Positions 20,556 to 26,920 of a stretch of 64,000 bases of DNA are shown piece by piece. The stretch covers positions 1-64,000 of the forward strand of contig MPNL01000002.1 of NCBI GenBank assembly GCA_002239005.1, in the 5' to 3' direction. The position numbers were made by a program, and so were the translations under genes. Source of the stretch: Truepera sp. bin119. GTDB taxonomy: Bacteria; Deinococcota; Deinococci; Deinococcales; Trueperaceae. Position 1 is the stretch's first letter. Each line of letters begins with the position of its first letter. The notes below the pieces were generated by a model. The model worked only from the letters and a program-made list of their open reading frames with translations. It had not been told where the DNA came from and did no database searches.

Positions 20556-21746
20556 TTGCGAAAGTTGATCACCGCAGAATCTGTAACCGAAGGGCACCCG
20601 GATAAGCTCGCGGACCGTATCAGCGACAGCGTGCTCGACGCCATCCTCACCACCGACCCGTACGCGCGGGTGGCTGCGGAAACCATCCTCACTACCGGCC
20701 TCGCGCTCATCACGGGCGAGATCTCCTGCCACGGCTACGTCGATTTTCAGGAGATCGTACGCAAGGCCGTACGGGAAGTCGGTTACACTGACAGCAGCTA
20801 CGGGATCGACGCCGATCACAGCGCCGTGCTGATCGCCGTCAATGAGCAATCGCCCGACATCGCCCTCGGCGTGGACGCAGCGCAAGAGTCTTCATCTGGA
20901 GACGCCTTCGACCGGCTCGGGGCGGGAGATCAGGGCCTCATGTTCGGTTACGCTACGGTGGAGACACCCGAGCTGATGCCGCTTCCGGTCAGCCTCGCCC
21001 ACCGACTCGCCTCCCGACTCGCCGAAGTCCGCAAGACCGGCCTGCTCCCCTATCTGCGGCCCGACGGCAAGACCCAGGTCACTATCGCCTACGAGGGTGA
21101 CCACCCGGTGGAGGTGGCTGCGGTGGTCCTCTCGGCGCAGCACGCGCCCGAGATCGACCAGGAGACCCTGCGCCGGGACCTCGAGGGGTCGGTGATCCGC
21201 GAGACCATAGCTGAGGAGTTGCTCACGGTCGATACGGCCCTCTACATCAACCCGACCGGTCGCTTCGTAGTGGGGGGGCCGCAGGCCGACGCAGGCTTGA
21301 CCGGACGGAAGATCATCGTCGACACCTACGGTGGTGCCGTGCCCCACGGCGGCGGGGCCTTTAGCGGCAAGGATCCTACAAAAGTGGACCGGAGTGCCAG
21401 TTACTTCGCCCGCTACATCGCGAAAAATGTCGTGGCGGCCGGCCTAGCACAGCGCTGTCAGGTGCAGCTGGCCTACGCCATCGGAGTAGCGCACCCGATC
21501 GGTATGTATGTCGACTCCTTCGGCACCTCAAGTCTCGGTGACGAGAACCTGAGCGAACTCATCCGGCGCACCTTCGACGCCAGACCTGCTGCCATCATCA
21601 AGCAGCTCGACCTCCGACGACCGATCTACACAGCGACCAGTAGCTACGGACACTTTGGACGGGGCGGATTCCCCTGGGAACGGACCGATGTGGCGGAGCG
21701 GCTCCGCAAGGAGGCGCTGACGCTGAGCTTAAGGCCGGGCCGCTAG
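20556..21746 (+). CDS. metK: S-adenosylmethionine synthetase
   Basis: Makes S-adenosylmethionine from methionine and ATP. The 396-residue protein carries [17 protein letters not shown] at the N-terminus and the [19 protein letters not shown] loop near residue 270, both diagnostic, with ATP- and metal-binding residues intact. Translation starts at TTG 20556, 11 bases after AAGGAG; this puts the usual [15 protein letters not shown] start at the N-terminus. It appears to be transcribed alone. Confidence 0.96.
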
Positions 21747-21981
21747 CCGATTCCCCTGGCGAGGCCTTCCGGCAAACTGACAGGAGGCGACCGACAACCT
21801 CGCTCGAGGCTTAAGTGGCCGGGCCGCGAACGCCCTCCCGATCAGGAGATTTCGGGAGCACGCCTGGCTACCTTAAGATCTGCCCACAACCCCTTTGTGG
21901 TCTCGGTCAACCCTTATACCGCTTCTCACCTCGGAGACCGCTATCATCCAAACAAGACACTCTCGACTTGGAGTGATACCC

Positions 21982-22530
21982 ATGCAACGAACGCTTCCCA
22001 TCCTCCTGCTAGCGAGCCTGTTGGCGGGTGCGGCGTGGGCTCAGAGACCCGGGCAGCAGGCCCCCGATTTCACGCTGGTCGACCAAGAGGGCCAAGTCGT
22101 CACGCTTAGGGATTTTGCAGGCAAGCCCGTGGTCCTCAACGCCTGGGCCAGCTGGTGCGCGTTCTGCATCGAGGAGATCCCGCTCTTCCAGCAGGTGCAC
22201 GATGCCGTCAATCTGGATGGGACCCGGGTCACCTTCCTGTTGGTGAACCTAGCCGAGGACTTCGGGGTGGCCACGTCATTCCTTAGCGAGGAGGTCGACA
22301 CCACACTCCGGTCGCTTTACGACCCGAGCCAGCAGCAGAAGGAGCGGTTCGCCGATGTCGACTTCGACAGCACCCGCAACCTGCTCACCAGGACCTACCG
22401 GGTTCGCGGCATGCCGACCACCTTCTTCATCGGTGCGGATGGGTCGATCTCCAGTGTCAAGATCGGTCCCCTTACCGCCGGAGAACTCGCCAGCCACCTC
22501 GCAGGGTTGGGGGTGGAGTGGACCCCATGA
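21982..22530 (+). CDS. TlpA/ResA-like thioredoxin, exported
   Basis: Extracytoplasmic thiol-disulfide protein, 182 residues. A signal peptide (residues 1-20, ending GAAWA) is followed by an AhpC/TSA-Redoxin fold with the active site WASWCAFC (C59 and C62) and the cis-proline loop RGMPTTFF. The signal and the adjoining CcdA gene, which overlaps its stop codon, indicate that CcdA keeps it reduced. Cytochrome c maturation or cysteine repair outside the membrane is the likely role. Start ATG 21982 lies after GGAGTGATACCC. Confidence 0.9.
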   Translation: MQRTLPILLLASLLAGAAWAQRPGQQAPDFTLVDQEGQVVTLRDFAGKPVVLNAWASWCAFCIEEIPLFQQVHDAVNLDGTRVTFLLVNLAEDFGVATSFLSEEVDTTLRSLYDPSQQQKERFADVDFDSTRNLLTRTYRVRGMPTTFFIGADGSISSVKIGPLTAGELASHLAGLGVEWTP

Positions 22531-23303
22531 GCGACATCCCCCGGAACAACGGGGCCACGCCCAGAGGCCTCACTGTCCGCTGGCACCTCACCTTTCACAG
22601 CCTGGCATTCGTATTGGGCCTCGCAGCAGTGTTCGTCGCACTCGGATTCAGCGCCGGGCTAATTAGCAATCTCCTGTTCGATTTCGGCGACATCATTCGG
22701 ATCGCGGCCGGGGCGTTTCTGGTGCTAATGGGGCTGCTCATGCTCAGGCTCATCCCCATCCCCTTCCTGGAGCGCGACATGCGGATGCATATGCAGAACA
22801 AACCCACCGGGTATGCCGGTTCAGCCCTAGTCGGAGTCGCCTTCGCCGCTGGCTGGACCCCCTGCATCGGGCCGATCCTGGCCGGAATCCTGGGCATCGC
22901 CGCCACCACCGGTGGTGCGGGACAGGGCGGACTCCTGCTCGGATTCTACGCGCTGGGATTCGCCGTGCCGTTCCTGGTCTTTGCGCAGCTCCTCACCGCC
23001 TGGAAGGTGCTCAGGCGCTACGCCGGTGTCATCGAGAAGATCGGTGCGGTGCTGCTCATCCTGGTCGGCGCTCTGCTACTCACGGGAGCGGTCAACGCGT
23101 TCGCCCCCTACCTTGCCAGCCTCGGTAGCCTCGAGGGTGCCGTGCTCGGCGGTGCCAGCACACCCACCCTGGGGGTAGCCTTCCTGGCCGGCGTGCTCTC
23201 GTTTCTCTCCCCCTGCGTACTGCCAATCCTCCCCTCGTTCCTCGGGTATCTCACCGGAATGAGTATCGACCAACTCATGGAGCGGGTGCAGGTGCCTGCC
23301 TGA
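22527..23303 (+). CDS. CcdA/DsbD-type membrane thiol reductant carrier, apparently circularly permuted
   Basis: CcdA carries reducing power from cytoplasmic thioredoxin to exported thiol proteins by two membrane cysteines. Usual CcdA begins with a helix holding 'FLSPCVLP' and has 'GWTPCxGP' in helix 4. Here the order is changed: the 258-residue protein starts in what is normally helix 2 (SLAFVLGLAAVFVALGFSAG), has GWTPCIGPI with C113 in its third helix, and ends with LAGVLSFLSPCVLPILPSFL (C230), the usual first helix. Six helices remain. Moving helix 1 of an even-numbered bundle to the C-terminus keeps every helix orientation. ATG 22527 overlaps the tlpA stop (ATGA). Confidence 0.85.
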   Translation: MSDIPRNNGATPRGLTVRWHLTFHSLAFVLGLAAVFVALGFSAGLISNLLFDFGDIIRIAAGAFLVLMGLLMLRLIPIPFLERDMRMHMQNKPTGYAGSALVGVAFAAGWTPCIGPILAGILGIAATTGGAGQGGLLLGFYALGFAVPFLVFAQLLTAWKVLRRYAGVIEKIGAVLLILVGALLLTGAVNAFAPYLASLGSLEGAVLGGASTPTLGVAFLAGVLSFLSPCVLPILPSFLGYLTGMSIDQLMERVQVPA

Positions 23304-23503
23304 ATCATCCCCCGGTTTCAGGGCCTGCGGCTCAGGGCAGGCGCACGGCCGGGTGCACCCCACACGGGCCACCAACTCTGCAACCAGAACGCCGACCGGT
23401 AGCAGGTCCTGATGTCATACGGCCTAGAGTTCCCGGAAGATCCGGAGACCGCAACCTGCCCGGCGCCACCAACCAAGCGACCCCCATGGAGCCAGCTTCG
23501 CCG

Positions 23504-25546
23504 TTACGACGCTGCCACCGCTTGGCTGGCAAGTACCCTGCTTGTCAAGTGGTCCGGCACAGGGGCGTGGTGATCGAACTTCAGGCTGAACGCCCCCCGA
23601 CCGCCGGTCATCGAACGCAGGTCCGGGGAGTAGCTCTGGATCTCGGCCATCGGCACGTGGGCACTGACGACCGAAACCGAGCCCTCGGCGTCCATACCGA
23701 GAATCCGACCCCGGCGCGTATTCAGGTCGCTGATGACGTCGCCCGTGTAACGGTCGGGCACCCGCACCTTCAGCAGTGCAACCGGCTCAAGGAGCACGGG
23801 GCGGGCCTGCTGCATCGCCTCCTCGAAGGCGCTGGCCGCAGCGATCTGAAATGCTATATCCTTGGAGTCGACCGGGTGGCTCTTGCCGTCGTAGATCGTG
23901 ACCCTGACGTCCATCACCTGGAAGCCGCCCAGCACCCCCTCGGCCAGCGCGGCGCGGATCCCCTTCTCGCAACTGGGAATGAACTGGCTGGGAATGGCAC
24001 CGCCGACGACCTCGTTCTCGAACTCGAAACCGCCCCCCTTAGGCAGCGGCTCGACCCGGAGCACTACCTCGGCAAACTGACCGGCGCCGCCGGTCTGCTT
24101 CTTGTGACGGTAACGAGCATTCCCCCTGCCGGTGATGGTTTCCCGGTAGGCGATGGTGGGGGTGGCGGTGGCGACCTCGACGTTCGAGCGCTCCTTGAGT
24201 ACGTTCACCGCCACCTCGAGGTGGACGTGACCCATCCCCCACAGCACCGTCTCGTTGGTCTCGGCGTTGCGCTCCAACTGCAGTGTCGGATCCGCCTCGA
24301 GCAGCTTCGAGAGGCCTTCACCCAATTTGTGCTCATCCGACCTGGTTCTCGGGGTGAGGGCCAACGCCATGACCGGAGAGGGGAAGCGGATCGGGGCGAG
24401 CATAAAGCTGGCATCCCGGGTGGCCAGGGTGTCCCCCGTACGGATCGCTTCGACCTTGGTAACAGCACCGATCTGGCCCGCTGTAAGCTCCCTGACCTCC
24501 TTGAGATCCTTGCCGTGAGGGATGTAGAGGTGTGCAGCCCGCACATCCTCCTCTTGATTGACGTCGTAGACGGTGTCGCCCGTCTTGAGACTCCCCGACA
24601 GCACCCGCATGATCGAGACCTTACCCATGTAGGGGTCCACCACCGTCTTGAATACCCGAGCGCTGAACGGTTGTCCCTCACCCAGAACCGGAGGGTCACC
24701 CGATAGGGTCGGCAGCGGGGCGTGATCCTCGACCCGGCGAACTCCCTGAGTCATGAAGTCGAGGAGCAGACTCACCCCTATCAGTTCGGTCGACGAGGTC
24801 AGCAGCACCGGGGTGAGTTCATTGGCCCGAACAGCGGCATAGAACGCGGCGAGCAGTTCGTCGTCGCCGATAGCCTCATCCTCGAGGAATTGCAGCATCA
24901 GATCATCATCGGTCTCGACGATGGCCTCGACCAGTCGGTCGCGGTATTCCTGGGCCACGCCGGCCACCTCGTCGGGGACCGGCGTCTCCTGGGGCTCACC
25001 GTCGGTCCAGATGTACGCCTTCATGGTCAGCAGATCGACGACCCCTCGGAAGTCCTCTGCCTGACCGATCGGCAGCTGGATGGCGGCGATATTACCTGGG
25101 AGGCTCGATTCGATAGCGGCCATGGTTCGGAAAAAGTCGGCGTTTTCTCGGTCCATCTTGTTGATCACGAGCAAAGTGGAGAGTTCGCGCTCACTCGACG
25201 AGGTCCACACTCGCTCGGTGCCGACCTCGACACCAGAGACCGCCGAGACCAGAACGACCACTGCATCGACCGCCACCTGGGCACCCCGGATCTCGCCCAC
25301 GAAGTCGGCGTAGCCGGGGGTGTCGAGCAGGTTGAATGCGTTGCTCTTCCAGGTGAAGGGGTGGATAGTGGTGTAGATCGAGATCTTGCGGCGCTTCTCC
25401 TCGGGGGTGTAGTCCGAGGCGGTGGTTCCATCCTCCACGGTGCCGAGCGCGCCGATGGCACCGGTCTGTTTGAGGACGGCTTCGACCAGCGAGGTCTTGC
25501 CTGCCCCACTATGGGAAAGCACCGCGACGTTGCGAATCTCCGACAT
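23504..25546 (-). CDS. EF-G-like translational GTPase (EF-G paralogue)
   Basis: The 680-residue protein has the five-domain EF-G layout: P-loop SHSGAGKTS (residues 11-19), G4 motif INKMDREN, and domains III-V (VHLEVAVNVLKERSNVEV, RYRHKKQTGGAGQFAEV). It differs from housekeeping EF-G. The P-loop is S-G-A-G-K instead of I-D-A-G-K, and the G3 motif is DTPGYADF with Y79 in place of the catalytic histidine. These traits match the EF-G2/FusA2 group seen in Thermus and mycobacteria, whose role is unclear. Start 25546 follows a GGAACGTGGAG ribosome site. Confidence 0.92.
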   Translation of the reverse strand: MSEIRNVAVLSHSGAGKTSLVEAVLKQTGAIGALGTVEDGTTASDYTPEEKRRKISIYTTIHPFTWKSNAFNLLDTPGYADFVGEIRGAQVAVDAVVVLVSAVSGVEVGTERVWTSSSERELSTLLVINKMDRENADFFRTMAAIESSLPGNIAAIQLPIGQAEDFRGVVDLLTMKAYIWTDGEPQETPVPDEVAGVAQEYRDRLVEAIVETDDDLMLQFLEDEAIGDDELLAAFYAAVRANELTPVLLTSSTELIGVSLLLDFMTQGVRRVEDHAPLPTLSGDPPVLGEGQPFSARVFKTVVDPYMGKVSIMRVLSGSLKTGDTVYDVNQEEDVRAAHLYIPHGKDLKEVRELTAGQIGAVTKVEAIRTGDTLATRDASFMLAPIRFPSPVMALALTPRTRSDEHKLGEGLSKLLEADPTLQLERNAETNETVLWGMGHVHLEVAVNVLKERSNVEVATATPTIAYRETITGRGNARYRHKKQTGGAGQFAEVVLRVEPLPKGGGFEFENEVVGGAIPSQFIPSCEKGIRAALAEGVLGGFQVMDVRVTIYDGKSHPVDSKDIAFQIAAASAFEEAMQQARPVLLEPVALLKVRVPDRYTGDVISDLNTRRGRILGMDAEGSVSVVSAHVPMAEIQSYSPDLRSMTGGRGAFSLKFDHHAPVPDHLTSRVLASQAVAAS

Positions 25547-25762
25547 CTCCACGTTCCTTTCGTCCAGAGGGTCCTCAAGGCCTCGATTCAAATCCGTAAA
25601 GCCTGTCTACCCGAAGTGCTGTGGGATCTGGCAAGTTTACAGAGTATAGCAGGCATGGGGCCAGGAACTGCGCGGGGGCACCCGAACGCGCCTACCAGGC
25701 GGCTCAGACCTCAACGATTAGGGGCGTTAGCCTACCCGGCGATGAGTTGCTAGACTCTGAGC

Positions 25763-26920
25763 GTGAAGGCAACGGCAGAACGGCTTGAGACCCGCCCGAA
25801 GCTGATCATCGGCTGGCTGGTGGCTTCCGATCTGCGCGATCCCGAGCTGCTCGAGATCTATGCGAGGGCCCGCAGCTTACTTACTGAGCAGCTGCGGGAG
25901 CAGTTTCCCATGTTCGACTGGCGGATGCCTCAGATCGAACGTCGCAACTTCGCGCCCCGGGGCTCGCTCAAGCCGCTGAACCTGCTCGAGATGGGCAGTG
26001 AGGAGAGGCTCTTCCAGCGCTGGGACTACGCCCTGGTCGTAGTCCCGAACGAACTGCAACCCAGGCGCCGCATCTCGGCTCTCGGGGTTCCGTCCAGCGC
26101 CCTCGAGGTGGCGGCTCTCTCCAGCGCCAGGCTCGGCCGCAAGGATGAGGACTTGGCCGAACGGCTGGCGGCGTTGGCCCAACACCTGCTCGGCCATCTG
26201 TTCACCCTCGAAACCCGTGACGAGGGCCCCATGCGCCCGCCCGGAGAGGTCGAGGACCTCCGGCTCTACCCCTTCCCCAAAGACCAGGAAGAGGAGTTGA
26301 TCAGTATCCTCAGCTACGTGACCGATACCCGCCTTGAGGAGAGGAAACGCAGCTGGAACACCGTCAATTTCTACATCCGGAGCTTCTTCAGCGACTGGTG
26401 GGGGATCCTTAAGAGCATCGGGGGCTACCGGCCCTGGCGCATCCCGCTCTTCCTCGGCCGGCTCACGGCGACGGTAGCCGTGTCGCTGCTGCTCCTCCTG
26501 CTCACCGCCGAATCCTGGGAGGCGGGGACCCACATGCGCACGCTGTGGCTCGGAGTGGGATCGGTGGCCGCCATGATCACTGCCTGCCTGTTTATCTTTT
26601 TCGGCCAACACCTCGACCAGGTAGGGCGCGGTCGTGGCTGGAGCGAGCAGTTGGCACGCAGTCGAATCGTGCTGTTCGGCACCCTCTTGGCAGGCATGAT
26701 GTCTCTGTGGGTGATGCTGTTCGCAGCCATCCTCACCTTCTCGTTTCTGCTACCAGCTTCCGTGACTTCCGGTTGGACCGGGTTCGACCCCGCAGATCTC
26801 CCCCGTGCCCGCTACGCTGCTTTCCTCGCCTCGATCGGCATCCTCGTAGCGGCCCTAGGCGGCAACCTCGAAGAGGAGGACGCTATCAAGGCCGAACTCT
26901 TTTTCGATCAGGAGGTCTAA
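25763..26920 (+). CDS. Conserved-looking membrane protein of unknown function
   Basis: The 385-residue product is not recognised. The N-terminal half is soluble (RPKLIIGWLVASDLRDPELL; WDYALVVVPNELQPRRR), followed by a charged segment and four hydrophobic segments in the last 160 residues (LTATVAVSLLLLLLTA; VGSVAAMITACLFIFFG; LLAGMMSLWVMLFAAILTF; AAFLASIGILVAALGG). It starts with GTG 25763, and TAGACT (25751-25756) lies only 6 bases upstream, which suggests a leaderless transcript. It stands alone between EF-G and a degraded region. Confidence 0.75.
   Translation: MKATAERLETRPKLIIGWLVASDLRDPELLEIYARARSLLTEQLREQFPMFDWRMPQIERRNFAPRGSLKPLNLLEMGSEERLFQRWDYALVVVPNELQPRRRISALGVPSSALEVAALSSARLGRKDEDLAERLAALAQHLLGHLFTLETRDEGPMRPPGEVEDLRLYPFPKDQEEELISILSYVTDTRLEERKRSWNTVNFYIRSFFSDWWGILKSIGGYRPWRIPLFLGRLTATVAVSLLLLLLTAESWEAGTHMRTLWLGVGSVAAMITACLFIFFGQHLDQVGRGRGWSEQLARSRIVLFGTLLAGMMSLWVMLFAAILTFSFLLPASVTSGWTGFDPADLPRARYAAFLASIGILVAALGGNLEEEDAIKAELFFDQEV

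Follow-up and report, generated by a model that had tools for sequence, protein, structure and literature searches.

The window, the whole 64,000-nucleotide stretch of DNA analysed here, encodes a protein that by its motifs and helix order is a permuted variant of CcdA, the small six-helix thiol carrier that takes reducing power across the cell membrane, and not an ordinary CcdA. The first helix of normal CcdA (TM1) lies at the C-terminus, so that the product runs TM2-TM3-TM4-TM5-TM6-TM1, with C113 in TM4 and C230 in TM1. Sequence comparisons support a natural circular permutation in which the chain was opened in the TM1-TM2 loop on the cytoplasmic side; the permutant is real and apparently working, not an error. 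The whole of the evidence is very probably best explained by a natural CcdA permutant that arose by tandem fusion and serves as a CcdA-like electron carrier to TlpA. An earlier note on this DNA had proposed such a permutation from the order of GWTPCIGP (C113) before LSFLSPCVLP (C230) in one open reading frame. The coordinates and both codons are confirmed, and the proposal is borne out by a rotated-HMM comparison, by two swapped blocks on a solved CcdA structure, by recurrence in many independent genomes and by loop charges.

Gene architecture and family membership

The features of the locus are collected in Table 1. Six transmembrane helices are predicted at residues 14-52, 54-72, 96-128, 131-158, 166-186 and 216-243, and both membrane cysteine motifs are kept, [ST]PCxLP in TM1 (C230) and [ST]PCxGP in TM4 (C113). 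Whereas CcdA has an N-terminal TM1 (order TM1-6), here TM1 is C-terminal.

Table 1. Features of the permuted ccdA locus, with positions numbered along the window
Feature	Position	Strand	Remark
TlpA/ResA-like thioredoxin-fold protein, WCAFC	21982..22530	+	stop overlaps permuted ccdA start (ATGA)
Permuted ccdA homologue, 258 aa (P0001)	22527..23303	+	Pfam DsbD_TM (PF02683) 51.6 bits vs curated cut-off 27.1
TM2-TM6 block, by homology to normal CcdA	22575..23123	+	normal-order HMM positions 45-231 align here
C113 codon in GWTPCIGP (TM4 of normal CcdA)	22863..22865	+	invariant in 16 permuted homologues
New extracytoplasmic TM6-TM1 linker, residues 187-214, zero Lys/Arg	23085..23168	+	
Relocated TM1 (LSFLSPCVLP), residues 215-245	23169..23261	+	broken helix predicted, 216-226 / 234-243
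C230 codon (TM1 cysteine)	23214..23216	+	invariant in permuted homologues

The earlier reading that no N-terminal piece or frame is hidden holds. The only nearby in-frame starts are GTG 22518 and ATG 22527, above which the frame crosses tlpA out of frame. A normal-CcdA HMM has zero matches in the upstream stretch 21700-22526 and gives only negative-score noise in the downstream stretch 23303-24300, so neither a separate TM1 nor a residual TM2-6 is found. The same HMM thereby rules out both a TM1 missing on the N-terminal side (in another frame or upstream) and a second copy downstream.

Alignment to CcdA families places the protein above the DsbD_TM cut-off, with the best stretch covering profile positions 45-202 only, that is, without the N-terminal helix; in set A2, 15 of 15 members match PF02683 at E 0.01 or better. 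DsbD_2 (PF13386) is also matched above its cut-off over TM2-6. The curated cut-offs of the NCBIfam models are not reached (TsoB best, 30 bits vs 805; DsbD, 14.1 vs 330). Because the match is confined to TM2-6, family models silently label permuted proteins CcdA.

Evidence for a circular permutation

Paired HMMs were built from 84 normal-order CcdAs, one in normal order and one from the alignment rotated after TM1. The rotated HMM outscores the normal HMM by 38 to 57 bits in 56 of 56 permuted proteins, whereas it wins for 0 of the 84 normal CcdAs, which score 48-70 bits lower with it. The window protein itself rises from 196.5 bits with the normal HMM to 245.5 bits with the rotated one. Moreover, Thermus thermophilus CcdA (TtCcdA, 5VKV) shares the six helices and both [ST]PC motifs, and both blocks map onto it 1:1. 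Specifically, positions 19-196 of the permuted-protein profile correspond to chain residues 40-213 and positions 211-244 to residues 4-37, so that residues 4-37 of TtCcdA follow 40-213 in the permuted family; read from the aligned sequences, this mapping is a single cut and a single swap with nearly no loss.

The spacing between the TM6 glycine and the TM1 cysteine has a median of 49 residues in the 56 permuted proteins. In normal CcdAs, the C-tail after the TM6 glycine has a median of 26 residues and, by inspection, a leader of about 20 residues precedes the TM1 cysteine. The linker thus approximates the sum of both old ends, which would fit tandem copies that fused end to end and were then trimmed; a 12-helix tandem CcdA-CcdA intermediate was not seen. 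Duplication in tandem, then fusion of the ends, then trimming is the likely course of events, and it probably took place at least twice (in Deinococcota and Chloroflexota).

Topology and predicted structure

Loop charges in 16 Deinococcota permuted proteins place the N-terminus in the cytoplasm, as had been proposed. The mean number of Lys and Arg residues is 2.4 in the N-tail, 4.4 in the TM3/4 loop and 2.8 in the TM5/6 loop, against 0.4 in TM2/3, 0.5 in TM4/5 and 0.5 in TM6/1; the C-tail has a mean of only 0.9. By the positive-inside rule, this pattern fits two cytoplasmic termini (N-in, C-in), whereas the termini of TtCcdA lie outside.

Structure prediction, earlier suggested as a check, gives the six helices listed above. 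The AlphaFold2 model from 57 sequences (pLDDT 80.6, pTM 0.75) is of moderate quality, with the TM1 helix broken at SPCVLP; it supersedes a first run with 7 sequences (pLDDT 67.6), made before normal-order TM2-6 fragments were added. Among PDB entries the model matches 5VKV best (probability 1.00, E 0.02, TM-score about 0.4); as the comparison is sequential, the match spans TM2-6 only.

Distribution across bacteria

Dozens of bacteria, belonging to at least three phyla, have kept permuted CcdA, which is not a peculiarity of Deinococcota. It occurs in 21 of 111 Deinococcota genomes at 45-80% identity, with the motif order verified in each, and an order common to 21 genomes is not due to chance. 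Twenty of these carriers belong to the window's family (including Trueperaceae HKST-UBA01), and the remaining one, the single-contig genome G038, to another family of the same order. Additionally, permuted CcdA is present in at least 25 of 400 sampled Chloroflexota genomes and in 4 of 197 genomes of the Nitrospirota sample. Chloroflexota carriers known by name are MAG-54, M_MetaBat.41, Roseilinea mizusawaensis and SRR6670123_bin.33; a further carrier, FW021_bin.48, is unplaced. The earlier note had pointed to other Deinococcota genomes as the place to look for this order; that expectation stood, and the presence in Chloroflexota and Nitrospirota was missed.

The junction model A3 finds 0 of 227 Actinomycetota, 0 of 230 Gemmatimonadota and 0 of 299 Pseudomonadota genomes, a result that speaks for A3-like forms only. 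Within that scope the zeros are informative, since on known genomes the model separates permuted proteins (E <=3.3e-21) from other matches (E >=6e-16). Searches for permuted forms gave two matches in viral contigs, both in normal order, and zero matches covering 80% of the query in plasmids. One permuted match in a Bacillota-centred sample (G1050/L149) is uncounted; it groups with Chloroflexota forms, and a mis-binned contig is suspected.

Copy number and motif vary among carriers. The single-contig relative G016 (L004) has two permuted copies, at 1927036-1927779 and 3263332-3264075, with equal scores and on opposite strands, and in some other genomes (G238, G129) the number is two or three. 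In many Chloroflexota permuted CcdAs (L121-L130, L133), PCIGA, PCIGV or PCIGT replaces PCIGP after the TM4 cysteine.

Evolutionary origin

Trees were built on TM2-6 only, so helix order cannot influence them. The Deinococcota permuted proteins form a single clade (100/99) that sits within a 99/93 group together with normal-order Bacillota and the normal-order Deinococcota proteins L022 and L023. Within the phylum, these two CcdAs (44 and 40% identity) are the normal-order proteins nearest to the permuted one, and they likewise follow a thioredoxin-like, tlpA-like gene, but they differ in having TM1 at the N-terminus. The Chloroflexota and Nitrospira-type permuted proteins are placed elsewhere in the tree, near normal-order Chloroflexota. 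These placements favour, but do not prove, two independent permutations at the same loop, one in Deinococcota and one in Chloroflexota. The chances are about even for a fuller version, in which CcdA was permuted at least twice in the TM1-TM2 loop, in Deinococcota from a Bacillota-like tlpA-ccdA and again in Chloroflexota/Nitrospirota, with transport kept and partner choice possibly altered. FW021_bin.48 (L037), on a long branch, may represent a third origin.

A single ancient permutation spread by horizontal transfer, a question of origin alone that leaves the main explanation untouched, is possible though rather doubtful. It would account for the identical order and identical cut loop found everywhere. 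Uniting all permuted rows under a constraint costs 21.4 and 17.3 log units in two samplings, and the AU test speaks against it in the first (p 0.014) and is indecisive in the second (p 0.063). In none of the bootstrap trees does a branch set all normal-order rows apart from the rest, which a single switch would require; the 99/93 grouping of the Deinococcota permuted forms with normal-order Bacillota and Deinococcota f2 proteins, and the tlpA-like gene that also precedes normal-order L022 and L023, further argue against it. The TM1 block alone is uninformative as a tracer of the parent lineage, scoring similarly against all normal groups.

Gene neighbourhood and proposed mechanism

The thioredoxin-fold or ccm neighbour characteristic of CcdA is present, and the linkage to TlpA that had been proposed extends well beyond the window: tlpA overlaps the permuted ccdA start there and lies directly upstream in 18 of the 21 Deinococcota loci. 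The Chloroflexota locus L077 has the order ABC ATPase (ccmA-like), ccmB, ccmC, permuted ccdA, tlpA, and in L106 a ccmC-like gene precedes permuted ccdA. Two genomes (G111, G114), which may be incomplete, show the permuted gene only, with no normal CcdA at E 1e-6. The tlpA/ccm context and these two genomes support a CcdA-like role, and the most likely function, as judged from gene content, would be to pass electrons to TlpA and cytochrome c maturation as CcdA does. The window's genome, like many relatives, also carries a normal CcdA (L001), so the permuted copy could be specialised.

According to a passage in PMC7329351, citing Zhou and Bushweller 2018, TM1 and TM4 of CcdA are proposed to move like an elevator within a scaffold formed by the remaining helices and in this way to carry the cysteine pair from one side of the membrane to the other. 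The permutant would adopt the O-shaped bundle of CcdA, with its two termini in the cytoplasm. The position of TM4 would be kept, while the tether of TM1 would shift from the inside (TM2) to the outside (TM6), leaving this proposed mobile elevator helix with its outer end tied to TM6 and its inner end free. Cytoplasmic thioredoxin would reduce the putative C113-C230 pair, which would then move outward and reduce the co-encoded TlpA, and reduced TlpA may feed cytochrome c/oxidase maturation or periplasmic thiol reduction.

It is unlikely that the protein folds but has an altered job or assembly, either as a domain-swapped dimer in which TM1 binds to a neighbouring chain or as a TlpA-dedicated carrier outside cytochrome c maturation. 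Swapping could be permitted by the 49-residue median spacing, but TM1 is already packed, with fair confidence, in the model of a single chain; a different job could be read from the coexisting normal CcdA and from the loss of PCIGP in some Chloroflexota forms, but the permuted gene of L077 has ccmABC on one side and tlpA on the other, and in G111 and G114 the permuted form is the only one seen. Between the window gene and its G016 homologue (NG86), dN is 0.138 and dS 0.98, and over the last 45 codons, which hold the relocated TM1, dN is 0.157 and dS 1.10; both blocks, TM2-6 and the relocated TM1, are under purifying selection, with dN/dS about 0.14. A functionless, degenerate paralogue retained by chance after a rearrangement, for which the normal copy in the window's genome would leave room, is very improbable in the face of that constraint, of many invariant columns (both cysteines included) in an alignment of 16 diverse permuted homologues, and of its occurrence across many genera and three phyla. 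An assembly or binning artefact, the kind of rearrangement the earlier note had named as fatal to its reading, is practically out of the question: the window's assembly has 91 contigs, but the same order recurs in 21 of 111 Deinococcota genomes and across many assemblies made separately, two of which (G016 and G038) consist of a single contig.

Other neighbours were also recorded. In several loci (L013:5-928; L014-L016, L034), the tlpA-permuted ccdA pair is preceded by a DUF3179 gene that carries an FCPLC motif, and this position suggests a shared redox role. L008 (G014) retains the metK ... fusA setting of the window (names by inspection), with tlpA replaced by a hemC-like gene (L008:2262-3143) that overlaps the permuted ccdA start. 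In the Nitrospirota-sample loci L154-L157, the surroundings of permuted ccdA include a cytochrome P460 gene (L155) and a small gene encoding a CxxCH heme motif.

Comparison with known systems

DsbD beta and DsbD_2 belong to the same superfamily as permuted CcdA. Permuted CcdA differs in having six helices and a separate TlpA, where DsbD beta has eight helices, with periplasmic domains fused to it. No earlier description of a circularly permuted CcdA or DsbD was found in open-access full text. Few natural circular permutations of polytopic membrane proteins are on record, and those found in the literature lie between families. Natural helix reordering is described for the repeat shuffling of Mem_trans versus SBF_like (PMC8396727) and for the type I ABC importer TMD versus MacB (PMC6588880). 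Unlike these between-family differences, permuted and normal CcdA are about 35-45% identical over TM2-6 and occur together in one genome.

For this small elevator-type carrier, whose structure has been solved, the same genomes thus contain both permuted and normal forms as recognisable homologues. It becomes possible to test how the order of insertion influences membrane folding, whether elevator motion needs the TM1-TM2 tether, and why the TM1-TM2 loop tolerates a cut, perhaps repeatedly. If CcdA was indeed permuted at least twice, one of its two mobile elevator helices would have moved to the other end of the chain with transport still working.

Elsewhere in the window, a 385-aa open reading frame at 25763-26920, with zero Pfam matches at E 1e-5, contains hydrophobic stretches and adjoins an EF-G-like gene (23504-25591, minus strand).
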